Of a stretch of DNA of 21,133 nt, positions 1 through 12,262 are shown piece after piece; position 1 is the stretch's first letter; the number at the start of each line of letters is the position of its first letter. Under the pieces are notes generated by a model. That model had not been told where the DNA came from and made no database searches. It saw nothing but the letters and a program-made list of their open reading frames with translations. Origin of the DNA: a virus. The stretch lies in IMG/VR virus record IMGVR_UViG_3300025131_006896, positions 1-21,133 of that record. One strand, written 5' to 3'. The position numbers and the translations under genes are program-made.

Positions 1-3000
1 GTGTAGGTTGAGGCGGACCTTGTCGTAGTTGTAACCAATCGGCATGTCCCGTTTGAGGTTCCACGTCAGGACTCGCTCTTGGTAGTCCTCGCCGCCGGGC
101 AGGGTGTACTCCTCATATTGGGTGTCGCTGCCCCAATCCGAATGTGAGCCGTAGGTGAAGTCGACCACCTCGACCTGATGAGACTCAACCCAGCCCAGCA
201 GCTCTTCCTTGGTGATAGTCTTCTTGCCCTCGAGGAAGGTCTCGATCTCGAGGTACTGGAACTCCTCCGCCTTGATGCCTGGCTGGTAGTCCCACTTCGA
301 TGGGTCTTTCTTGTTCTTCTTGCGGAACAGACCCATGGCCTGCTGGGCGCTGGCCTTGGACGGCATCTTGGTCTGGACAGTCGAGATGATCTGTGAGAAG
401 AAGGGCGAGCCGTCCTTCTGGTGCAGCACGGTGGGGGTCTGCTCGCGCTGCAGGGCCTCGAGCCTGCGGAGCTCCTCGATCTGGGGCTGCGCCAGGCGAG
501 GCCTGTTACGGAGTTTGTCGATCCTCTGGGTCAGCGCCCGCTGGCCAGGGTTGGGCTGGTAGCCAGGCTCACGGCGCTGGTAGAGGGTGTCGCCCTGCTG
601 ATCGAAGAAGCGTTGCATCTCGCCGATGGTGCGGAAAGACTTGCTCCCACCTGGGACATACACGCCTTGTGGACCCACTTCTTCAACGATTATGCGCCCC
701 ATGCCCTTCGCCAGTTCCGCCATACGGCGCATCTGAATCGGAGACGGCGTGCCATCAACGCTGAAGCCAACCTCATTGGGAGAAAACGTAGTTCTTACTG
801 CCCCGGTTTCTATTAGGAACTGCGGCAAAGCGTCGAGGTCGTTATCTGCATCTACTACAAGCTGGGCAAGGACAGCGTGATCTCTTGTGCGTGGCACGGT
901 TCTGCCATCAGACAAAATGAAGGCAGGCGAGATTCCCTCTTCTTCGACTCCCTCAAACATATCGAGCATCTTCTGCTCGAGCGGGTGCAGCCCCCCCCTT
1001 GTCTGGTAGAGGGTTTCCCCTACGTCAGCCCCGCCGGCACGTCCTGCAGCTGCTCCGCCGTCAGATCCTCCAGCTCGACCTCGTCCCACGCGTACGCCAG
1101 TGCCACGAAGGTGTCCTTCGTAAGGGGAAGCCCCCTCGCTATCATGTACTGCAGCGTTGGAGACCCCTTCGCCTGGGCCAAAAGTTCGGAGGAAGGTTTC
1201 GGCTTGGTTTCTTGCGTTGTCGGCAAGTTTCCCTCCCTTGGCAATGCCTTGGTTGTACAGTCGTTCTTGGTCTGCTGCAGCGATGAGGAACACTTCGTCC
1301 CTCGCCTGGTCGATCGTGAGCTCGCCTGCGTCGTGCCTCGCCCACACCGCTGCGATCGTAGCAGCCAGCTTCTTGTCGCCCTTCTGGGTGGGCGTGAACA
1401 GGGCCCGCCCTGCCTCCCAGGTGATGGACTGGAGAGCATTCTCTCGAGTAATCCCCAGCCGCTCTGCTGCCCTGAGATAACCCTCTAAATATAACACATA
1501 TGTTCCACCTATTCCAGTGAACATGGAGGTGGATTTCGACCCGGTGCCACCGAAGTTCTGATCGACCTCTATCGCCTTCGTCCCCAGCGCCTTGAGCAGC
1601 GCAGCGGCGACGGCGTGGGTGTCGATGGTGATGTGCTTTCTGCTGTTCGGAGACAGGAGATTGTTGTAGAAGTTCCGCACCTTGTGCTGCAGGCCCAGCT
1701 GGATGGTGATGTTCTCCAGGCTCCCGTCCTCGTAGATCGAGATGGCCTTGGCGATGGTCTCGTTGGGCGCCCACCTTGTGGGCTCGCCACCGGGCTCATC
1801 CTCGATAAGCTGGCCGTCCGGGGTGATGAGCGTCTTGACCTTGTTCCGGTGCGCCTCGTCGTGGATGCGAAGCCAGAAGGCTTTATGTAGCTGTGTCTTC
1901 TGCTGGGCGAAGGTCTTGCCCGCGAGCTGGCTGGCCAACTGCACCTTGCCTGCGAGGTTGCTGATCGCTCTCAGGCTTACAAGGTTATTCTCGAGGAGCT
2001 CCGCTTTCGACATATTGAGGAACACTTGCTTCTGTGCTGCCTTGAGCGCCTTGCCCTTGAGACCTCTTTTGACCAGCAGCTTGCCGTCCGCGTCCCTCTT
2101 GTTCGCCGCGAGGTAGGCAGTCCTTTTTGCCGGGCTTGGATACCAGACAGTCGCCTCGACTTTAGCCAGGTAGCCCTTGATCCATGCGGCCATCTCTGGG
2201 GAATACGCTGTGTCCTGCTCCTGTGTCACCGTGTCGAGCACACGCCTCAACATCGAGGTGTTGTTGCCCCACTCCTGCTGGGCAGACAGCACCGCGGTCA
2301 TGCCTGCCGCTTGGTGTTCCTCGATGCTATACCTGGGAGCGACCACAGTGAACAGGGCCTTGTTGGCTCCGGGGTACCACTTGCCGTAGAGCCGGCGAGC
2401 AGCCGGGATCACCTTCTCATGCAGCCACATGAGGTTGTCAGCTACGTGCTCGATGAACGACTCGACGCGATCCAGCGGCGTGGCCGATTCGTCCATGGGC
2501 GCTATGCCCGTGTAGCTCTCCACCAGCTTGGCGTTGTGTGCGATCCACACCTCGTCGTCCTTGATCGTGTCGTAGTTCGACATGAGCAGCTCTTCGACGG
2601 GATCTTCTGTCCGGTCCTCAGACATGGGCAGGCGGGTCGACGCCTCCATGGGGTGCTTGCGCTTCTGGAACAGGGTGCCCTGCACGTCCTCGCCGGCAGG
2701 GGGAGTCTCCTCGTCAGCCGCGAACAGATCGCCCTGCGCCTCGGCGCGAGCGGCGTCCCCTGCTGCTTGATCGAGCGGCGTCCCCTCGAGCCCCTTGCCC
2801 TCAGAGCTGATGCCCCCGCTGGGCAGCTCGCGCTGGTCGCCGAAGGTCATGCCCGTCTGGTCTGGGTCTGTCTTGAAGCTCTTCCGGCGGGTCTGGTGCA
2901 GCGTGTCCTTGTCCCGGTAGTGCCGCTGCAGGGCGCCGATGGTATCGAACCAGACGTCGTCCTCTGGGGTGGAGATGTAGATCCCGCGACCCTGCGCTGC

Positions 3001-6000
3001 CTGGGCGATCCTCCGCATCTGGATCGCTGTGGGAGTGCCACTCCCGATACTGAGCCCTATCTCCTGCTGCGACGGGGATATGCGGATGGCGCCGGCATTC
3101 AGCAGGACGTCGACGGGATCGACTTCTCCACCGAGGAGATTGTCGCCAACCATGGCCTCGCCCTTGAGGGCTGCTTTGGTGTCCTCGTAGTGGCTGTCCA
3201 GGCGGCGGGTGACCGTCCCGTCCTTCAGGATGAAGCCCATATGCTCGTCGGCGGAGGTGATGGGGACGGCCCCGGCCATGTCCAGCAGCTTCTGCTCGAC
3301 CGGGTCGAGGCTGGGCGCGGTCTGGAAGAGGTCGTCACCCAGCTCATCGATGAACTCAGACGTGTCCTGCTGGAGGTTGTTCTCTGAGCGCAGGCGGTAG
3401 GACTCTGCTCTGGTGTTGCCGGCGGTGGCGCCGTAGACCAGCTTCGCTGTCTCCTCGCGGTCGAGGTAGTCGCCGTTGCGGTCAGTGAAGCCGAACCGGC
3501 CATCTTCCTCGCCGGTGTCGAAGAAGGCTTGCTCCTCCTCCTCGGTGATCTTCTTCTGGTCTATCAGGTCGATGAGCACCTCGGCGTGGATCTGCCCAGG
3601 CTTGCCCTCATGGACCGTGCCGTCCCTGAGTTTCAGGGCCACAGCTCGGAGCGGGGAGCCGTCGTCCTCCATCATCTGGAAGAGGGTGAAGTCGTCCTCG
3701 TCCATCTCGTCCATGTTGCGCTCGACCAGAGCCTCGAGCTCTTCGTCGGTCAGCTCTCCCATCTCCTCTGCGGGGACAAAGCCGCGGACGCGGGCCTCTT
3801 CCTCTGTCTCGCCCTCCTCCTCGAAGGAGTGCTTCTCGAGGAACGCACCGGTGCGTACCGCCTCGGCCAAGCTGTCGAAGTCTGTGACCTTTGCCTTTCT
3901 CAGGACGATCGAAGACTGCTCGTCCTTCATGGCCTCCTCGAAGAAGTCCTCGATGGTGCCACTGGTGGTCTTGCCACCGCGCCAGCGGGAGAGCGCCTGC
4001 CTGGTGCGCTTGTCGTCCAGCTTGCCCGTGGCGTTGGTGATCCGCTCGACCTCCTCGCGGGAGATCCCGCCGGCCCACTGGACCACGTTGTTGACCGTGG
4101 CGCCGGTGCGCTTGGGCGGCTTGCGCTTGGGCTTGGCTTTGGGCTCCTCTGCTTGGGGCTCTGGGAGTCCCTTGGCCTTCCTGTAGCCGTCGCGCTCCTC
4201 TGGGTCAGCCAGACGTGCCAGGCCGAAGGTGCGATCCTCGTCGGACACACCACCGGATTCCCCGATGGCGATCTCGTAGTCCGCCATCCACTCGTCTGGG
4301 TTGAAACCCTGAGCGGTGGCGGCCTCGCGCAGGCGCTGCTCGTTCTTGGCGAGGGCGGGATCCGCGGGCTCAGGCTTTGGCGTTGCGGTCTCCTCTTTGT
4401 CCAGTCGGTCCTTCGCGTAGACGTAGTCCTTCTCTCGGAGGCCACCCCTTTCCGCTACGACCAGATTCTCTTCCATCCACTTGTCTGGATCTTGGCCGGT
4501 GGCGGCGACCTCCTCCCGCAAACGGGCCAAGTTCTCGCGGTGTCCCTCCTCCGCAATCTGCTTCTCCAGTAGCTGCTCCCTCGCCTCCGCTGTCTCCTCC
4601 TCACTCCAGCCCTTGGCGATCAACAGTGCTTCAGTTTCGGGCTCGAGAGTTGTGGTAGATTCCTTCCGGGATATTTCCCGCTCGGGGGTCTTTTTGGGCT
4701 CCGGCTCTGTGGTAGGCGCGGCTGGGGGCTCCGGGGATATGTCGCTGGGGGGAGAAATGTCGCTGGCGACAGGCGGTGCCTCTGGGGGTGCCTCCGCTTC
4801 CCTCGACACTGTCGGGACACGTACGCCGATCCCCCGCTCCCGGCGGGTCTCCACCGCCCGGCGCAGCATCTCCGTTGCCGGGTCAACCGTGCCCTCTGCC
4901 TCGGTGCCTGCAGCTGCGGCGGTTGCCTGCTTGCGGAAGGTCTCTGTCTCCTCCTCGATAGACTTCTTGGTCCCCTCGAGCCTCTCGATCAGCTGCTTGC
5001 GCTGATCGCCAACAACAGGGTCAAGATTCTCCGCCTCGAGGGCCGCTGTATACGCGCCGTCGCGGAACCGGAACTTGAGATCCTTGAGCTCTTTGCGCTG
5101 GGCCTTGGGTGCCTTCTCCCCGTCTGGGAAGGCGATCTCCACTCGCGACCCGTGGCGGTCGCTCTTGCGAGTTACTGTCGGGGCGGGTTCCTGCTCTCTC
5201 CCCGTGGACTCCGGGCTCTCCGCAGTCCTACTGTCGCGGCCAGGTTCCCGCCCCGATCTATCTGCTGCCCCGGCACCGCCGGCCATACCCAAAAGCATGG
5301 CGGGGCCCAGGACGTTGACGCCCTGACGCAGCTGCTCTGCCGCTTCCTCTGTGGTGACATGCCCACCGGCGAGCTTGATCCCCGCCTCGAGGGGCTCCTC
5401 GGCGTACTCCGTCACGCCTTCCCAGACGCCGGATGAGAGGTAGCGCACAATGGCGTTACGCGCCCCCGGACCCAGCTTTCTGGTGAGCCTATCTATGCTC
5501 AGAGCGTTGAGGACTCCGGCCCCCAGGGCCATGAGCTCGCCAGCAGTCTCGGCTTCGTCCCTGGTGCCGCCCTTCGCGACGATCTCGCGATAGGTGGAGG
5601 TGCCTTCCATGATGCCGCCAGCCGCACCGCCGGCTATGTTCCTGGCAGCCCGGGCGGGAGTCATGGTCTTGAGCAGGGGGGCCTTCTGAATGCCCGCCCC
5701 GATCCGCGCCAATCGTGCTACCGTTGCCGGGCTCCACTTCACCGCGGTGCCCAGAACCTGGACGGCCCTGCCGGCCCCCATACCGGGCACCATGGCCGCG
5801 GCGAAGGACGGCACCATATCCGCCACGCCGTAGGCCCAATAGGCACTGTTCGACAGCAGGTCCCAGTTGATGGACCCGTCCTCCTGCAGGACGTCGCCCT
5901 GTGCTTCTGTGGGTGGCCTGTAGTCCTCCTGGAAGGCCTCAATCAGATCGGCCTCTTCTCGACCGGCCTGCTCCATGGCCTCGAGGCCCAGCTTGCCGCC

Positions 6001-6375
6001 TATGTATTGGACAAACGAGGCCGCGGACCCGGCCACCGTCAGCGCACCGTGCGTCAGTCCAGTCTCAAAGGCTCCGGGAGTGGTCTCAGGATCGAAGAGG
6101 CGGCTCTCGAGAAACTTCGACGGTGGCGGTGCCAGCTCGGCTTCCTCGTACCACAGCTCCTCGACTGGAGGCTCGGGAAGTAGCGCAGCTTCCGGTGGCG
6201 GTGCCAGCTCGGCTTCCTCGTACCACAGCTCCTCGACTGGAGGCTCGGGAAGTAGCGCAGCTTCCGGTGGCGGAGCGAGCTCCGGTAGATCAGGCGGAGG
6301 TGCCAGTGTGGCGGTGATATACCACGGCTGTTCCTCTTCCTCTTCCTGGAAGAGGCTGCCCAATGCTTGGCTCAT
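1..6375 (-). CDS. Giant phage polyvalent protein, partial (at least 2125 aa)
   Basis: One frame stays open from the ATG at 6375 (ATGA overlap with the previous stop) to the window edge. In order: a Pro/Glu-rich N terminus with a perfect 24-residue tandem repeat (38-85); a Gly/Ala-rich hydrophobic region (110-365); a charged helical region (410-495); two related PD-W-M units (616-730); a small GFTDRNGDYLDREE domain (910-990); a ~145 aa cassette (1015-1161); a ~450 aa domain (about 1255-1705) with TIDTHAVAAAL around D1585; a second copy of the cassette (1788-1933); and a C-terminal region with KAEEFQYLEIETFL and TKEELLGWVESHQVEVVDF (about 2018-2055). The cassette and C-terminal motifs are typical of polyvalent proteins delivered with phage DNA. 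Seven [TDV]L[FYH]Q motifs mark linkers. The frame looks disturbed near 1020-1260. Enzymatic domains may lie beyond the window. Confidence 0.85.
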   Translation of the reverse strand, partial: MSQALGSLFQEEEEEQPWYITATLAPPPDLPELAPPPEAALLPEPPVEELWYEEAELAPPPEAALLPEPPVEELWYEEAELAPPPSKFLESRLFDPETTPGAFETGLTHGALTVAGSAASFVQYIGGKLGLEAMEQAGREEADLIEAFQEDYRPPTEAQGDVLQEDGSINWDLLSNSAYWAYGVADMVPSFAAAMVPGMGAGRAVQVLGTAVKWSPATVARLARIGAGIQKAPLLKTMTPARAARNIAGGAAGGIMEGTSTYREIVAKGGTRDEAETAGELMALGAGVLNALSIDRLTRKLGPGARNAIVRYLSSGVWEGVTEYAEEPLEAGIKLAGGHVTTEEAAEQLRQGVNVLGPAMLLGMAGGAGAADRSGREPGRDSRTAESPESTGREQEPAPTVTRKSDRHGSRVEIAFPDGEKAPKAQRKELKDLKFRFRDGAYTAALEAENLDPVVGDQRKQLIERLEGTKKSIEEETETFRKQATAAAAGTEAEGTVDPATEMLRRAVETRRERGIGVRVPTVSREAEAPPEAPPVASDISPPSDISPEPPAAPTTEPEPKKTPEREISRKESTTTLEPETEALLIAKGWSEEETAEAREQLLEKQIAEEGHRENLARLREEVAATGQDPDKWMEENLVVAERGGLREKDYVYAKDRLDKEETATPKPEPADPALAKNEQRLREAATAQGFNPDEWMADYEIAIGESGGVSDEDRTFGLARLADPEERDGYRKAKGLPEPQAEEPKAKPKRKPPKRTGATVNNVVQWAGGISREEVERITNATGKLDDKRTRQALSRWRGGKTTSGTIEDFFEEAMKDEQSSIVLRKAKVTDFDSLAEAVRTGAFLEKHSFEEEGETEEEARVRGFVPAEEMGELTDEELEALVERNMDEMDEDDFTLFQMMEDDGSPLRAVALKLRDGTVHEGKPGQIHAEVLIDLIDQKKITEEEEQAFFDTGEEDGRFGFTDRNGDYLDREETAKLVYGATAGNTRAESYRLRSENNLQQDTSEFIDELGDDLFQTAPSLDPVEQKLLDMAGAVPITSADEHMGFILKDGTVTRRLDSHYEDTKAALKGEAMVGDNLLGGEVDPVDVLLNAGAIRISPSQQEIGLSIGSGTPTAIQMRRIAQAAQGRGIYISTPEDDVWFDTIGALQRHYRDKDTLHQTRRKSFKTDPDQTGMTFGDQRELPSGGISSEGKGLEGTPLDQAAGDAARAEAQGDLFAADEETPPAGEDVQGTLFQKRKHPMEASTRLPMSEDRTEDPVEELLMSNYDTIKDDEVWIAHNAKLVESYTGIAPMDESATPLDRVESFIEHVADNLMWLHEKVIPAARRLYGKWYPGANKALFTVVAPRYSIEEHQAAGMTAVLSAQQEWGNNTSMLRRVLDTVTQEQDTAYSPEMAAWIKGYLAKVEATVWYPSPAKRTAYLAANKRDADGKLLVKRGLKGKALKAAQKQVFLNMSKAELLENNLVSLRAISNLAGKVQLASQLAGKTFAQQKTQLHKAFWLRIHDEAHRNKVKTLITPDGQLIEDEPGGEPTRWAPNETIAKAISIYEDGSLENITIQLGLQHKVRNFYNNLLSPNSRKHITIDTHAVAAALLKALGTKAIEVDQNFGGTGSKSTSMFTGIGGTYVLYLEGYLRAAERLGITRENALQSITWEAGRALFTPTQKGDKKLAATIAAVWARHDAGELTIDQARDEVFLIAAADQERLYNQGIAKGGKLADNARNQAETFLRTFGPGEGVSNAAVHDSEGASPYEGHLRGTGVRVGRGRAGGSDGGAAAGRAGGADVGETLYQTRGGLHPLEQKMLDMFEGVEEEGISPAFILSDGRTVPRTRDHAVLAQLVVDADNDLDALPQFLIETGAVRTTFSPNEVGFSVDGTPSPIQMRRMAELAKGMGRIIVEEVGPQGVYVPGGSKSFRTIGEMQRFFDQQGDTLYQRREPGYQPNPGQRALTQRIDKLRNRPRLAQPQIEELRRLEALQREQTPTVLHQKDGSPFFSQIISTVQTKMPSKASAQQAMGLFRKKNKKDPSKWDYQPGIKAEEFQYLEIETFLEGKKTITKEELLGWVESHQVEVVDFTYGSHSDWGSDTQYEEYTLPGGEDYQERVLTWNLKRDMPIGYNYDKVRLNLH
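1020..1260 (-). other. Protein-like segment in a second frame inside the giant gene
   Basis: In the minus frame one base off the giant frame, the sequence reads SSELLAQAKGSPTLQYMIA followed by RGLPLTKDTFVALAYAWDEV and ELEDLTAEQLQDVPAGLT, then TAG at 1022-1020. This resembles a short motif (G-PLT-x-x-x-F/Y-L-LAY...LTAEq...P) that I recall from many small phage proteins. In this frame 40 of 47 codons end in G or C, while only 20 of 50 do in the giant frame, whose peptide here is Gly/Arg/Ala-rich and unlike a protein. The true coding frame therefore seems to shift by one base somewhere in about 1180-1260 and shift back near 1015-1025. Confidence 0.6.
6121..6264 (-). repeat. Perfect 72-bp tandem repeat, two copies
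   Basis: Bases 6121-6192 and 6193-6264 are identical, followed by 9 bases of a third copy. The unit is 24 codons, so the frame is kept. It encodes a Pro/Glu/Leu unit ending in ELWYEEAELAPPP. A perfect pair points to a recent duplication and to easy change in copy number. Confidence 0.95.
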
Positions 6376-7916
6376 CTGATATGGCCCTGTCGCGGCCTCT
6401 GGTATTGGGATCGCCTGGCATCTGACTCAGCCTGGATTCGCGCCTGCCTGGGAGCGAAGACCCTGTCGATGATCTCGTTGGCCAGACGGTTGGCCTCCCT
6501 GTGGCCTACCCCAGCTTCGCGGAGCATCCGCAGCACCTGGTTTTTGTTGATCTCACCACTTTCCAACTGGGCCTCGATCTGCTCCACGACGGACGCCACC
6601 TTCTCCTCGCCAACTGGGACAGATTCCCCCTGGCCTGCCCCAAGCATGGGGCCCTGAGATGGAGGTGAAACTGGCGCACCCAACTGTTCCACAGGAGTAG
6701 ACTCCCCTGGCTCTGCTCCCAACATGGGGCCAGAGGTTGGTTCCGGCATCGGTGCTTGAGTATCGGCGCCTTCGAGGATCCCCTGGGCAGCAGCTGGATC
6801 ACCCACGGCATTCTGCGAACCCCCTGCCCCCATCTCGTTCCAGGCTTCCTGGAAGGTCTTGTCCTTCTTGCCGCCGGCAGCCACACCGTACGTCTTGTTC
6901 CATTCGGCCAGCTTCGCAGCCACAGCTTTAACAGCAGCGGGCTCAAGTCGATTCGCGTTGATGAAGGAGCGATCGACAGCAGTCAGGTTCGCGGTGGCGT
7001 CCTGCGCGGCAGCTGCCGTTTCCATACCCAGCGGTGCCCGCTCCTCAACTTCTGTGAAGGCTTCAATGCCCAGGGGCTTTTCATACGAGGCGAGCTGGGG
7101 TTTACCGAGCTTGGGGTCCTCCTCTCCCGGCGGCGACGTCAACTGCGGCAACATCGCCTCAATGGCTTCGAGGCGCTTGGTGTCACGGGCCCTGTTGTCT
7201 TGGTTGTACGCGGTGGGGTGGGCCATGGTGGCGCGGAGATTCTTGGCTTCATCCTGAAGGCGGCGGATGACCGCTGCCTCGGCCCTCTTGAGATCCCCCA
7301 CTGCTTCCTTGTAGGTGGGCGAGTGCTCCACCCGAAGACCTGCCGCGAAGCCCTGTTTCACCCACGCTCGCATCTGGTCGATGTTGTTGCTGTCAGGCTT
7401 GGTGGGCATCCACGCCTTGAGCCGATCCTCGACGTCTTCTGGGACACCTCGGACAGTGCGCTGGTAAGCGGCCTCGTCCTCTTTCAGCTTCAGCTCGCGC
7501 TTGCCGCGGTCGTCGGCTGCGACCCCGCGAAGGTGCTGTGCGTCCCTGGTAGCCTTGCGCTGATTGCGCTCCTGCTGTGCCTTCCATTCCTCGTCGGTTA
7601 CGCGCCCGCGGCCCTGCTGCTCGTTGAAATCGCGCTGCTTCTCTTTTTCCTCCCAGGTCAGCTGCTCGTGCTCGCCACGCTGTTTCGCCAGGGAGGTGGT
7701 TGCCAGGGACGCCTCGGTGGCTGCAGCATCGCGCTCGAGGCCGGCCTTGTAGTCCTTAGAGTTGACGCGCAAGCTCTCCGCGAACGACAGGGCACCCATG
7801 CGCTCGTTGAGCCGGTTGCGGGACGATTGGTTCTCGGCTCGTATCGACCGGCGTTCATCGGCGTGTTTGCCAGCGGCGATGCCGGCGCCATACATCATGT
7901 TCTGGAAAACGCCCAT
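6372..7916 (-). CDS. Helical internal virion-type protein (514 aa)
   Basis: The 514-residue protein starts MGVFQNMMYGAGIAAGKHADERR after a strong AAAGGAGGG site. Residues 1-25 form a short Gly/Ala/Met-rich hydrophobic stretch, the kind seen at the N terminus of small ejection proteins. Residues about 25-170 are Arg/Glu/Gln-rich, probably long helices. Around 390-440 are two degenerate copies of a GPMLGA-GES-PV motif in a Pro/Gly/Glu linker. The C-terminal ~80 residues contain an EKVASVVEQIEAQLESGE helix and NQVLRMLREAGVGHREANRLANEI. No family is recognised. It is coupled on both sides: TGATG with the 1448 aa gene and ATGA with the giant gene, so it is probably delivered or assembled with them. 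T7 gp14-like function is a guess from position and size. Confidence 0.75.
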   Translation of the reverse strand: MGVFQNMMYGAGIAAGKHADERRSIRAENQSSRNRLNERMGALSFAESLRVNSKDYKAGLERDAAATEASLATTSLAKQRGEHEQLTWEEKEKQRDFNEQQGRGRVTDEEWKAQQERNQRKATRDAQHLRGVAADDRGKRELKLKEDEAAYQRTVRGVPEDVEDRLKAWMPTKPDSNNIDQMRAWVKQGFAAGLRVEHSPTYKEAVGDLKRAEAAVIRRLQDEAKNLRATMAHPTAYNQDNRARDTKRLEAIEAMLPQLTSPPGEEDPKLGKPQLASYEKPLGIEAFTEVEERAPLGMETAAAAQDATANLTAVDRSFINANRLEPAAVKAVAAKLAEWNKTYGVAAGGKKDKTFQEAWNEMGAGGSQNAVGDPAAAQGILEGADTQAPMPEPTSGPMLGAEPGESTPVEQLGAPVSPPSQGPMLGAGQGESVPVGEEKVASVVEQIEAQLESGEINKNQVLRMLREAGVGHREANRLANEIIDRVFAPRQARIQAESDARRSQYQRPRQGHIR

Positions 7917-10900
7917 CAGTACCCTCCTTTCCGCCATTCATTCGTGTTCGTAGACCAGTGCGCGACCTCCGTGCCCTGCCCTGCGACGATCACAAATTTG
8001 CCTGGGCTGAGCTTGTGAATACGGACGTTCATGCCGATCTCATCGGCCAGCTGGTTGTCAGTTCTGGTGGCCAGGTAATCATGGGCCTGCACTACGATGT
8101 GGCTGTCAGTCTCCTCGTTATAGTCACCGACGACATAGACATCTGACATCGTCGACTCACCCTGCGTAGAGGACTCGTCGCCCGTTGTTGGCAACTGGAA
8201 CAGTTCTGGTGGATTGTCGCCGGGCCCAAAGTAGTGGGTTCCTGCCTGCAATAGCGCGGTGTTGTCCGCCCACCCCTTGAATATGTCCCATGCCAGGCCC
8301 TGGAACTCCCCGTCTTCGCCCTTGGGTCCAAAGATCGCCTCGAGATCCTGTGGCAGCATCGCGTTGGTTTGCTTGGGCAATACCAGATGGGACAGTAGGC
8401 GATCAATGTCCACATCCCAGTCTCGCCCACGTAGAGCATCGAGCTCGTCGATCATACCCGAGAAAACCTGACCTTGATAGCCGTTCGTGTCCACAACCCT
8501 GTTTATCATAGCTGACCGATCGACCGGCTGGGTGTTTTGATAGATCCCGTTGGGCGAAACGATATCACGCACCGATTCCGGCATCACAAAAAAGACGCCA
8601 TTCTCGTCTGGTGTGCGCCGGTTCTGCATCATCCTCAACACGTTGTTGCGGTACTCCTTCTTTTCGGCGGGGGAGGTAGGGGGCACCTGGTTTCCATCGG
8701 CATCTTGATAGCCATCGTGCCAGACGCCAGTACCCATGCGCTCACCGGTGGCCTGCTCCCAGATCGCAGTGACGCCGTTCGCCGTGTTGACGTCCATAGC
8801 CTCCCAACTGTCAGCGTTGATGATGCCGTCGAACATGGTTTCATAACTCTCAGCCATCTCGGCGCTCGACATGATGCCGTTTCTCTCGCCCCAGGCGGCG
8901 AGGTCATCAGCCATGATCCGTAGACCGGCTGCGTCCATACCCGGAGCTGGGTCGTCCAGGCCAACACTTGTTTCACGCCAGGGCAACTGCTCCCACACCG
9001 CCCTCATGTTGTCGGCGACGTTCTGCTGGATCGTTCCGAAGTCAGTGCGGTTGCTGCCGTCAGGCATCTTCCACACGTTGTGATCCATGAAGAAGCGGAC
9101 ACTCTCCCCCACGCTGTCGGCGCCGATGATCTGGGCTGTGCGATCTTTACCCCAGATGGTCATGGGGTCGGTGGTGTAGAGAGCCGACCGACCAGCGTTG
9201 CCACCTATATGGCCCGTTGCGGTTGGCGCGTAACCGGCTGCCTGTAGACGCTCCGAGAACCTGCCAGGCTTGTCGGCGGCGACGGTATTGTCGTGGATGT
9301 AGCTGCCTTCTCCAAAGTCGGTCATGTGGCCGTCCTCGAAGATGGCGCCGATATTGACGGTTTCACCGTCATCCTCGACCCTGGCACCCATCATGTCGCG
9401 GAATCCGATAGCGTCGTTACGGCCCAGGTTGCCGAAGTAGCCGTCCCAATTTCTGATACTCTCCTCGCGGGCTCCTGGTAGGCGAAGGTTGTCTATGCCG
9501 TTATCGCGGTTGGCAAGGGCAATGGCGTTCTTGTAAAACCTGTAGGTCAAGTAGACCGTGATCGCAGCGCCGGCAACAGTCTGAGGTACGGTCGCGCTAA
9601 CATGCTCCGCAGAGGCCCCCCACCTACCGGCAGTGGCGGCGCTGGACTCCGTTACTCCCGCCCCGCTTGGAGTGAGCACGTTCCCCCACACGGGGTCACT
9701 GGCAGCCAATGACGTGCTCGTGGGGACGCCAGAAGTAAAGGCGGACGTGGCTGTTGAGACCTTGTCATACACCTCTTCCGCGACATCTCCTGAGCTGCGT
9801 AGTGCGTTCCACTTTTCGACAGTCCAAGACATCGCATCAAAGAGCTTGAACTTCTCGTCGCCCAGCCCAATCAGCTCGCCCACAACGTCAAACCCGAGAT
9901 CCATGATACCGGCCCACTGCTCACGCTTCGCATTAAGGGCGTCTTCTTCGCGCCGCCAGTCCAGCAGATTGCCGGCGATTGTCTCTGCAGAGGTGAGCTG
10001 ATTGGCGGCGATTGTCTCTGCAGAGGTGATGCGATCGGCCTGAAGAGTAAGCTGCAGGTCGCGATCGAGCTGACGCTCTACTGACTGCCACAAATCCTCG
10101 CGGCGCTGGACAGTGTCGTCGCGCCCCCACTGCCGGCTGGTCATAAACAGCTCACGAGACCAGCTTCGAGTCTCGGCGCGATTGTCGATCATTTCCTGCG
10201 CTGCCATCCTGTCGATGTCCAGGCGGGCCGCCAGGTCGGTCAAGGCACGCTCGTGCGCCTGGCTACCCGGCGCACGGTGCATCGCCCCAGTCTCGTCAAG
10301 GTACATGCCGCCATACTCGTCGATCATGTCGCGCTGCCAGGCAAGAGTCGCTGTCACCGCGGCGTGTCGTTGGGCGTCGTCCTGGATGGCCATCCTTAGC
10401 GATTTGTCCAGGCGGAGCATCTCACGGGCATTGCCGTTCCGCAGGCCTTCCATAACCATATCGTGACGGTTGGCCTTGCTGCTTTCTGACGCCGCTAAAG
10501 CACGGTCGAGGGCCTGGTAGGCCTCGAGGTATTTCTGCTGGTCGTCCTGTAGTTCCAACGACGCGGCGGTCTCGGCAGTGATGGTCGCGATGCTGTGCCG
10601 CTGCACGTCCTCACGATTGAGCCACTCTTGAAGCCGGTCCAGCCGCGCCTGCTCGCCGGCGAACTCGGTCCGCAGGCCTTCCATAACTTCATCGTGACGT
10701 TCGGCCTTGTTGCTTTCTGACGCCCGGTGAGCATGGTCGAGGATCTGGTAGGCCTCGAGGTATACCTGCTGGTCGTCCTGTAGTTCCAACGACGCGGCGG
10801 TCTCGGCAGTGATGGTCGCGATGTCGTGCCGCTGCACGTCCTCACGATTGAGCCACTCTTGAAGCCGGTCCAGCCGCGCCTGCTCGCGGGCGAACTCTCT

Positions 10901-12262
10901 GGTGGCATCGTCGCTCTCCATCGCAAGTTTCGCGGCATGGTTCGCGTCCCGCCATCTTGTGATGTTTTCTCGAGTGAATTGGGCCCGCGCCTCGTATTCG
11001 GTGCCCATCACGGTGACAGTGTCGTAGAAGGGGATGCCATCAGATCCGGTGCGCTGAATGACGATCTCTCCACCTTCTCGACGCAACGCCTCAAGGGCAG
11101 CTCCGCGCTCGGCTTTCATTGACTCAAACTGCTGGTGGCCGATGAGGGTCTGCTTGTTGCCGTCGTTGTCGATGTAACTGCCACCGTCAGCCATGAAGAT
11201 GGTGAAGGCTTGGTCTTGCTTCTGCATGTGCATCTGCAGCTCGTTCTGACCCATCACATGGACGCGCTCCCAGTGGCCTGCCTCGTTCATCACATGCTTG
11301 TAGGTGCCATTAGCATTCTTCTCGTCGTAGCCGAAGATGATGTCACGTTTTGTCTGGTTGTCCATCTCCCGCAGACGGCGTTGCAGCGTTGGTGAGCCGT
11401 CAGCAAACTCGCCTTTTTCCTCAATCCACCGCAGCTGCTCGAGGCGGCTCTCGACGGTCCTGCGCGTGTCGCCGTTCGCGTCGACTTCTGGTAGACCGGT
11501 GACGGGGTCGTAGATAGTGCCCTCGGCACTGAACCAGGCCAGGGCTTCATTTGCATCGGCAATCTCCGTGTCCAGCTCAAACCTTTGGCCGGCGAGCAAC
11601 ACTTCAGCCTCAGTCGCTTCAACCTGACGCGCCGTCAGTGACGAAACGCGAATCTCTGACGCGATCGTACCGGTCTCCGCCAGCTCGCGCACATGTGTCC
11701 CCGACAGCTTGAACCCACGCTGCTTGAGGTCTTGCTGAATGAAAGCGATGCCATTCTCGTCAAACGTGCCATCGGGCAGGCGGAACTGATCAATGACCCC
11801 CTGAGAGCCAGTGTTCTCGATTGTAAAGTAGCCGGGCCTGATGGTCGTGTATCCAGCGGCTTCCTCGCCGGCGCGGTCGTGCTCCTCGCCCACTATCGTG
11901 CGGACGCTGATAGGCAGGTCGGTCTCAGGATCAAGCTCGCCGGTAAAAAAATCACCAGTCAGCCTCGATTGCTCGAGGTTCATGGTGTGCTCTTCCTTCT
12001 CGCGCTTGAGCGTCTTTACGTAAGTGGTCACGCGACCGCGCTCATTGGGATCTCCCAGGGCAACACGGCGGGCCATGGCGTCACTGACCGTCGCCCCATA
12101 CTGTTCCCGGAACTTGTCCTTGATGGCGCCAACCTGCGATTCAAACTTGTCGCGGTTGGTGATCTTTGGGGGTTCCCAAGCAGGCGCACCGATGATCTCG
12201 CCTGTGGGGTCTTTGTCTCCCATCCTCTTATGCTCGAAGGCAGAAGCATTCGTGTTTGTCAT
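7916..12262 (-). CDS. Very large internal virion / ejection-type protein (1448 aa)
   Basis: This 1448-residue protein is mostly alpha-helical and charged. Residues about 454-607 hold two near-identical 77-residue helical repeats (ARLDRLQEWLNREDVQRH...), with a degenerate third unit after them (RLDKSLRMAIQDDAQRH). A doubled SAETIA motif lies near residue 745-765. One hydrophobic segment (about 886-918, VAGAAITVYLTYRFYKNAIALA) could cross or touch a membrane. The last 300 residues are rich in Trp, Asp and Asn. No lytic transglycosylase or polymerase motif is visible. Size, helical nature and place fit an ejection protein such as T7 gp15/gp16, which form a channel across the host envelope. The start is TGAGATG with the previous gene. 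The TGA overlaps the next ATG (TGATG). Function is inferred. Confidence 0.75.
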   Translation of the reverse strand: MTNTNASAFEHKRMGDKDPTGEIIGAPAWEPPKITNRDKFESQVGAIKDKFREQYGATVSDAMARRVALGDPNERGRVTTYVKTLKREKEEHTMNLEQSRLTGDFFTGELDPETDLPISVRTIVGEEHDRAGEEAAGYTTIRPGYFTIENTGSQGVIDQFRLPDGTFDENGIAFIQQDLKQRGFKLSGTHVRELAETGTIASEIRVSSLTARQVEATEAEVLLAGQRFELDTEIADANEALAWFSAEGTIYDPVTGLPEVDANGDTRRTVESRLEQLRWIEEKGEFADGSPTLQRRLREMDNQTKRDIIFGYDEKNANGTYKHVMNEAGHWERVHVMGQNELQMHMQKQDQAFTIFMADGGSYIDNDGNKQTLIGHQQFESMKAERGAALEALRREGGEIVIQRTGSDGIPFYDTVTVMGTEYEARAQFTRENITRWRDANHAAKLAMESDDATREFAREQARLDRLQEWLNREDVQRHDIATITAETAASLELQDDQQVYLEAYQILDHAHRASESNKAERHDEVMEGLRTEFAGEQARLDRLQEWLNREDVQRHSIATITAETAASLELQDDQQKYLEAYQALDRALAASESSKANRHDMVMEGLRNGNAREMLRLDKSLRMAIQDDAQRHAAVTATLAWQRDMIDEYGGMYLDETGAMHRAPGSQAHERALTDLAARLDIDRMAAQEMIDNRAETRSWSRELFMTSRQWGRDDTVQRREDLWQSVERQLDRDLQLTLQADRITSAETIAANQLTSAETIAGNLLDWRREEDALNAKREQWAGIMDLGFDVVGELIGLGDEKFKLFDAMSWTVEKWNALRSSGDVAEEVYDKVSTATSAFTSGVPTSTSLAASDPVWGNVLTPSGAGVTESSAATAGRWGASAEHVSATVPQTVAGAAITVYLTYRFYKNAIALANRDNGIDNLRLPGAREESIRNWDGYFGNLGRNDAIGFRDMMGARVEDDGETVNIGAIFEDGHMTDFGEGSYIHDNTVAADKPGRFSERLQAAGYAPTATGHIGGNAGRSALYTTDPMTIWGKDRTAQIIGADSVGESVRFFMDHNVWKMPDGSNRTDFGTIQQNVADNMRAVWEQLPWRETSVGLDDPAPGMDAAGLRIMADDLAAWGERNGIMSSAEMAESYETMFDGIINADSWEAMDVNTANGVTAIWEQATGERMGTGVWHDGYQDADGNQVPPTSPAEKKEYRNNVLRMMQNRRTPDENGVFFVMPESVRDIVSPNGIYQNTQPVDRSAMINRVVDTNGYQGQVFSGMIDELDALRGRDWDVDIDRLLSHLVLPKQTNAMLPQDLEAIFGPKGEDGEFQGLAWDIFKGWADNTALLQAGTHYFGPGDNPPELFQLPTTGDESSTQGESTMSDVYVVGDYNEETDSHIVVQAHDYLATRTDNQLADEIGMNVRIHKLSPGKFVIVAGQGTEVAHWSTNTNEWRKGGY
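7922..7930 (-). promoter_or_regulatory. Strong ribosome binding site that fixes the start of the 514 aa gene
   Basis: AAAGGAGGG sits inside the end of the 1448 aa gene, with a 5-base spacer (TACTG) before the ATG at 7916. The first in-frame ATG at 7937 lies upstream of this site and would leave it unused, so the start at 7916, overlapping the stop as TGATG, is preferred. Confidence 0.75.
8424..8449 (-). repeat. 26-base dispersed exact repeat, copy 1
   Basis: This stretch, inside the 1448 aa gene where it encodes DELDALRG, is identical over 26 bases to 20191-20216, same strand, but is read there in another frame. It contains the palindrome GAGCTC. Confidence 0.9.
9971..10036 (-). repeat. 33-bp tandem repeat, two copies
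   Basis: The units at 9971-10003 and 10004-10036 share a central GCGATTGTCTCTGCAGAGGT (plus-strand reading) and encode the doubled TSAETIA motif in the 1448 aa protein. Confidence 0.8.
10440..10901 (-). repeat. 231-bp tandem repeat encoding a 77-residue helical unit, two copies
   Basis: Copies at about 10440-10670 and 10671-10901 share runs of about 58 and 62 identical bases and a few clustered differences. The period is a multiple of three. A decayed third unit follows at protein level (RLDKSLRMAIQDDAQRH). Confidence 0.9.

Follow-up and report, generated by a model that had tools for sequence, protein, structure and literature searches.

The window analysed here is a single virus record of 21,133 bases (IMG/VR record IMGVR_UViG_3300025131_006896) with its genes on the minus strand, the last of which is an open reading frame (ORF) for a giant protein (6375..1, 2125 amino acids, C-terminus open at the window edge). 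Seven [TDV]L[FYH]Q motifs punctuate this protein. We tentatively propose that they are a real, selected inter-domain tag, and that such tags are phage-specific recognition sites at which a zincin-type metallopeptidase (MPTase), encoded as part of the polypeptide itself, would process it in cis. What was computed is the set of tags, their position at borders, the conservation of their Gln, their homogeneity within a protein at the protein level, and their association with a clade of MPTases.

Repeated motifs at the domain borders of the giant protein

All seven motifs were found at the residues named in the original prediction, on the minus-strand ORF (window 3687..418). Three further motifs had been overlooked there: one in the window, SLFQ (residues 7-10), and two on contig L012, ALFQ and ALHQ. 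The ALHQ seems to lie inside a helical region and is probably a chance occurrence. L012 overlaps the window end by 1284 nt at 99.9% identity and extends the giant to 3774 amino acids; the joined protein rests on this contig, which is a different record from the window. The features of the giant, with tags read directly from the sequence, are as follows.

1..6375, minus strand: putative giant polyvalent protein of ejection type, first 2125 amino acids, the rest on L012 (ORF, L012 overlap, LPD38 in the continuation)
6346..6357, minus strand: SLFQ, residues 7-10, near the N-terminus
3676..3687, minus strand: TLFQ tag, residues 897-900
3334..3675, minus strand: module of about 114 amino acids between tags 1 and 2, residues 901-1014; tags on both sides, distant kin of a segment of phage ORF L354 (blastp E=8e-5)
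3322..3333, minus strand: DLFQ tag, residues 1015-1018; low confidence in the AlphaFold2 model
2905..3321, minus strand: cassette domain copy 1, residues 1019-1157; paralogue of copy 2, folded in the AlphaFold2 model
2893..2904, minus strand: TLHQ tag, residues 1158-1161; opens a disordered stretch in the AlphaFold2 model
2665..2676, minus strand: TLFQ tag, residues 1234-1237
1015..2664, minus strand: DUF7178 / phrog_3842 module, residues 1238-1787 (PF23802 E=9e-12; phrog_3842 E=2.6e-12)
1003..1014, minus strand: TLYQ tag, residues 1788-1791
589..1002, minus strand: cassette domain copy 2, residues 1792-1929; paralogue of copy 1
577..588, minus strand: TLYQ tag, residues 1930-1933
418..429, minus strand: VLHQ tag, residues 1983-1986, immediately ahead of the module starting PFFSQIIS
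1..417, minus strand: first part of the FYS/IQSDWH module, from residue 1987; its end, at ITPELKAHVAKGQALFQ, is on L012, and a predicted zincin domain containing HEVSH comes next

When the composition of the giant was shuffled 20,000 times, [TDV]L[FYH]Q occurred on average 0.09 times and at most 3 times, against the seven observed. This pattern was fitted to the data post hoc, and the looser class [LMI][FYH]Q was therefore also used; it occurred 8 times against 0.91 expected (P=5e-6), the strongest enrichment among the polyvalent giants examined. The number of independent tags is lower than seven, because the tags at 1015 and 1158, and likewise those at 1788 and 1930, enclose paralogous copies of a single domain. 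Among the other window proteins the sole such motif was a single ELFQ near the C-terminus (residues 1353-1356) of P0002, an internal protein of 1448 amino acids (window 7916-12262).

That the motifs lie at domain ends held true where it was checked, in AlphaFold2 models of the DLFQ/TLHQ fragment and of the ALFQ-zincin region. In the fragment spanning residues 1005-1245, fragment residues 18-153 were folded, DLFQ (11-14) fell within a stretch with a predicted local distance difference test (pLDDT) score below 50, and TLHQ (154-157) started the next such stretch. ALFQ sits in the sole stretch with pLDDT<50 ahead of the zincin. Fold searches of the PDB with both models gave no significant match. 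The motifs had also been described as mostly followed by K/R/T-rich residues; T, K or R is indeed next in 6/7, but no general rule of this kind was seen among relatives.

Homologues of the cassette domain were recovered by an iterated profile in L380, L335, L364 and L338, a direct scan of viral contigs for this domain having given no matches. The DUF7178 / phrog_3842 module had 119 relatives in viral contigs and is frequently standalone in other phages. The 3774-residue chain unites unrelated domains: DUF7178, the duplicated cassette, the FYS/IQSDWH module, the zincin and, in the L012 continuation, LPD38 (Pfam PF18857, E=2.9e-32). Because LPD38 and the zincin-like HEVSH domain are present in the continuation, the giant is, on its predicted domains, a phage polyvalent protein in the sense that Iyer et al. 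2017 (PMC5512222) give to the term.

Border tags in other polyvalent proteins

About 400 loci were collected with five domain queries picked independently of the motif, yielding 189 non-redundant giants. Three of the queries were short, one being a consensus and two being read off fetched loci. Domain borders were taken as the BLAST ends between otherwise unrelated giants, and domain types were assigned by regular expressions. Several of the statistics that follow were chosen during the work and are uncorrected for that choice.

Across the 189 giants, [LMIV][FYH]Q was enriched 3.6-fold within ten residues of domain starts and 3.4-fold within ten residues of domain ends. With nested borders counted separately, 116 borders carried the motif, compared with 42.5±7.7 when positions were shifted (z=9.5). 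Gln alone stood out among the 12 third residues tested; the other eleven did not. A count of unique tags, for the [LMI] class, gave 79 at borders. The tag precedes ADP-ribosyltransferase (ART; AYHGSPH), WFGDSK, MPTase (RGxF), FYS and IPED domains, and it also terminates a domain closing with ITPEMRxxVxxGQPLFQ. The original prediction, in which other polyvalent proteins were said to have similar motifs, is thereby borne out in the set of about 190 giants, many of which seem to have tags of this kind in varying versions, and the enrichment that it had proposed to look for is concentrated at domain borders. Over whole proteins from all giants, Gln was unremarkable as the third residue of [LMIV][FY]X (1.13), and so the signal lies at borders and within particular proteins.

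In orthologue alignments of 54 tags, the border-tag Gln was conserved at 0.63, compared with 0.39 for its neighbours (P=5e-5). Gln was not favoured in either control, [LMI][other]Q at borders (0.37) or [LMI][FYH]Q away from borders (0.41). As far as these alignments can tell, the conserved border Gln is the product of selection on a border motif. Identity at the three positions of L-x-Q was 0.53/0.30/0.52, the middle residue being variable. The residue after Gln was varied, with Ser 3.7-fold over background and Pro, no rarer than elsewhere, in 6/79 border tags. In a scan of prophages, most ART borders carried aromatic-x-Q or LFQ, an observation that is not independent since the query word contained YQ.

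Tags are shared within a protein and differ between proteins

Unrelated borders of the same protein shared [FY]xx tripeptides 1.46-fold more often than cross-protein pairs, while shifted controls gave 0.94-1.14. The shared tripeptides are the tags: FSR, LFQ, MFQ, YSK, FMP and FQP. Recurrent Phe/Tyr tripeptides were present in 21/177 giants, compared with 2.8% of shuffles and 3.4% of controls. For example, FSRxQ occurs six times, in unrelated contexts, in the 3966-residue ORF of L095; an SFSL-type border tag occurs eight times in the 6102-residue ORF of L091, which has two HE[IV]QHAIQ MPTases; and LFMP occurs four times in L129. The tags are QYKA or LYKA in L335 and RFKR or KFKR in L364. The cassette domain allows a direct comparison: it sits between two QYKA tags in L335 and between two RFKR tags in L364, and each of its copies in the window has L[FYH]Q at either side.

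At the DNA level this homogeneity disappears. Codon identity between tags of the same protein was 242/556, compared with 223 expected from codon use; the window protein's own tag codons were somewhat above expectation (49/64 vs 36.5). The tag therefore appears to be maintained as protein and not as a recombination sequence, since codons vary as usage predicts and flanking DNA is unshared. A DNA repeat shared at borders was ruled out by the codon differences together with a flanking DNA identity of about 0.3-0.4.

Two observations concern other tagged phages. L095 would be well suited as a model for the five-residue tag FSRxQ, and L129, L105, L103, L119 and L098 form a phage group that has LFMP border tags and an HExGHH/HELTH-type zincin in the same protein.

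Association of the tags with a built-in metallopeptidase

The search for a co-encoded protease, which the original prediction had recommended, revealed a predicted zincin (HExxH) in the same polypeptide. Directly behind ALFQ on L012 is a putative divergent MPTase (23 bits, E=2.7e-9 against one protein, with the polyvalent-MPTase profile). Two of its parts could be aligned to the profile, HEVSH and, further on, a HERLADAVVDML helix, the latter being a candidate for the helix with the third, acidic ligand; its model had a pLDDT of 78. Its best viral matches were polyvalent giants, with E about 1e-3 to 1e-2. HExxH or HExxxH was found in 92% of giants, compared with 9% of reversed sequences, and this near universality made the presence of an MPTase uninformative as a test against tags. 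Density of LxQ against a strict MPTase regular expression was also set aside, the effect being weak (combined P=0.011) and at odds with what the MPTase-retrieved set showed.

The clade of the MPTase, as assigned by short patterns, was more telling. [LIVMFY]xQ precedes 80% of STFLHESGH-clade MPTases, compared with a background of 16%, and the Gln in question was at least 90% conserved, almost to the level of the catalytic residues, in a 22-sequence alignment whose gap placement can favour this result. Among recurrent border families, the MPTase start was the best predictor of Gln tags. Away from the MPTase itself, the ART borders carried a Gln tag in 28/31 proteins with the STFLHESGH clade and in 3/35 without it (P=6e-12); at WFG borders the figures were 25/32 with and 15/46 without. 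Ser tags showed the reverse trend (2/130 vs 31/184). When lineage-typical families were left out, ART borders were still split by clade (5/5 vs 3/34). These counts suggest that the Gln tags of ART borders track one MPTase clade in the same polypeptide, in a manner partly confounded with phage lineage.

Proposed processing and alternative explanations

In the proposed mechanism, each tag would be a recognition site for the zincin-type MPTase of the same polypeptide, and this enzyme would cut the giant into modules around packaging, ejection or host entry. We infer the MPTase as the reader of the tag, the equation of reading with cutting, and the timing. All tags of one protein would have to fit the same built-in enzyme, and would consequently change together. 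With one tag per junction, matched to an enzyme on the same chain, the sites would belong to the polyprotein type. Zinc endopeptidases commonly prefer a large hydrophobic residue immediately C-terminal to the scissile bond. Since the aromatic residue is the tag's most constant element across phages, a cut N-terminal of the tag or within it would fit better than one after Gln, and the tolerance of Pro after Gln agrees. An extension of the proposal, somewhat less probable, is that polyvalent proteins may be polyproteins with a private code, each having its own tag at nearly every border and an MPTase that reads only that tag, with enzyme and tags co-evolving and captured effector modules being re-tagged.

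Several results weigh against autoprocessing. No processed fragment has been seen for the giant or for any other tagged protein, and Pro, as noted, can directly follow the Gln. PMC5512222 describes the N4 virion RNA polymerase, said to hold an MPTase, as packaged unprocessed, while P1 DdrB, reported as processed, is without an LxQ tag. Foldseek with the MPTase model gave no PDB match. MPTase clade is nearly collinear with phage lineage, and lineage-typical families go with this clade; without those families, WFG borders showed nothing (1/3 vs 13/44). In the set retrieved with the MPTase query, the density of [LMI][FYH]Q outside the MPTase was not raised (0.76). In a first regular-expression test for co-variation of Gln between borders within a protein, 4 pairs were seen where 6.8 were expected, which was not significant; the later comparison, stratified by MPTase clade, was clear.

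A serious rival, although on balance we think it unlikely, is that the tags are docking or sorting motifs by which a phage partner (portal, core, packaging or other ejection protein) folds, packages or threads the modules without cutting them. All the evidence for a selected, phage-specific short motif fits this explanation equally, Pro after Gln would be tolerated, and localisation of P1 DarB to the capsid by an internal signal is known (PMC9024508). Docking alone leaves unexplained why the tag type follows the clade of the same-chain metallopeptidase and why the MPTase start is so regularly tagged.

It is improbable that the tags have no reader and are residues of linkers or of domain ends, forming a C-terminal cap or strand, inherited by lineage and spread by domain shuffling with short flanks. 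Some tags do occupy fixed places in homologous domains (GQPLFQ after ITPEMR, ILxQ after DPxDP), lineage and tag are confounded, and the paralogous cassettes inherit their tags. However, in L335, L364 and L095 the terminal residue at an equivalent domain end differs by phage and matches that phage's other borders, codons are unshared between tags, Gln is selected in the border context only, and the models place the tags outside folds.

The original prediction had read the repeated form of the motif as a sign of shared function, either docking or proteolysis recalling viral 3C-like cleavage after Gln. A function at borders is supported by the enrichment, the conserved Gln, the independent codons and the association with an MPTase clade, but 3C-like cleavage after Gln is not: Pfam revealed no chymotrypsin-like or 3C-like protease among the window proteins or in the giant's continuation, Pro follows Gln in some border tags, and equivalent borders in other phages have Gln-free tags. 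The cleavage site of T4 gp21, after L/I-x-E, is spaced like L-x-Q. Cleavage after Gln by a separate 3C-like or prohead-protease-like enzyme acting in trans is nevertheless very improbable: L-x-Q with its variable middle residue resembles a P3/P1 specificity, and prohead proteases cut head proteins in giant phages (PMC10052503) and P1 DarA (PMC12810830), but Pfam found no such enzyme in the window or the giant (most of the phage genome being outside the available sequence), the Pro-containing tags argue against it, and the other ORFs of 20 tagged loci held just one copy of any tag, so that shared capsid substrates are not evident. Those ORFs were accordingly rejected as substrates of a shared protease.

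Comparison with known systems

Autoproteolytic release by the MPTase, and the analogy with polyproteins, were put forward by Iyer et al. in 2017, who cite P1 DdrB (PMC5512222) as processed and the N4 RNA polymerase as unprocessed. As a known processed case, DdrB had to be discarded here, its MPTase being of a different clade and accompanied by no LxQ tag. Like the proteins described there, the giant is a very large mosaic with effector-like domains, a zincin-like MPTase hub and LPD domains, in its case LPD38. The passages of that paper that were searched give no cleavage sequence, border motif or connection between MPTase clade and linker, whereas the present work names candidate tags and puts them to the test. 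Autoprocessing, having been proposed there without cleavage sites, was not directly testable at the time. The open-access literature that was searched held no description of border tags, subscription papers and preprints being outside that search.

If autoprocessing at the tags is correct, mutagenesis and N-terminal mapping could be aimed at exact positions, and the limits of modules could be recognised in giant phage proteins whose function is unknown. The MPTases would then form a family of zinc proteases whose members recognise different sequences. The tags would also explain how many disparate enzymes can enter the host in a single injected chain and still work apart from one another.

An operational analogy, drawn by Iyer et al. 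as well, is with the polyproteins of eukaryotic RNA viruses, in which repeated short junction sites are matched to the polyprotein's own 3C-like protease. The giant differs in that its candidate enzyme is a zincin and no 3C-like protease was found, the residue after Gln is unrestricted, and the tags vary widely among relatives. Processing by prohead proteases (T4 gp21, SPN3US gp245, P1 Pro) is similar in that short motifs mark where head proteins are cut, either ahead of maturation or in its course, with L-x-Q matching the spacing of L-x-E. However, those enzymes act in trans, mainly on N-terminal propeptides, whereas the tags of the giant stand between internal modules, and the window yielded no prohead protease. 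P1 Pro trims the capsid protein and DarA at their N-termini (PMC12810830, PMC9024508), an event of a different kind.

Bbp10 of Bordetella phage BPP-1 (2052 amino acids) and gp16 of Pseudomonas phage AF are giants that end the same gene block and have an STFLHESGH or STVLHELGH MPTase, but LxQ motifs are sparse in them and no tag is strongly repeated. No strong tags were seen in the BPP-1, F116, AF and Caulobacter SR18 giants.

Gene order and other features of the window

In minus-strand order, the window begins with a Cys-rich zinc-finger-like protein, a scaffold-like protein and the major capsid protein (phrog_334, Phage_capsid_3). Genes for putative tail proteins and for three putative internal proteins follow the capsid gene, and the giant ORF comes at the end. 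The giant thus closes the block of internal virion (ejection) proteins, the same place as in BPP-1 and phage AF. It is of a kind thought to be injected into bacteria, gene order being the sole pointer to its delivery with the DNA.

Four other features of the block were noted. A perfect 72-nt tandem duplication at 6121-6264, in the region coding for the N-terminal part of the giant, encodes a repeated acidic, proline-rich unit, ELAPPPEAALLPEPPVEELWYEEA. In P0002, a 231-nt direct repeat at 10406-10867, with copies 86% identical, corresponds to a duplicated helical unit of 77 amino acids. P0007 (16564-17073) has a C-terminal E3_binding (peripheral subunit binding) domain (PF02817, E=1.3e-9), which is unusual for a phage structural block. 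Finally, a 15-nt tandem repeat at 12848-12922 in P0004 gives rise to a TTTSD repeat.

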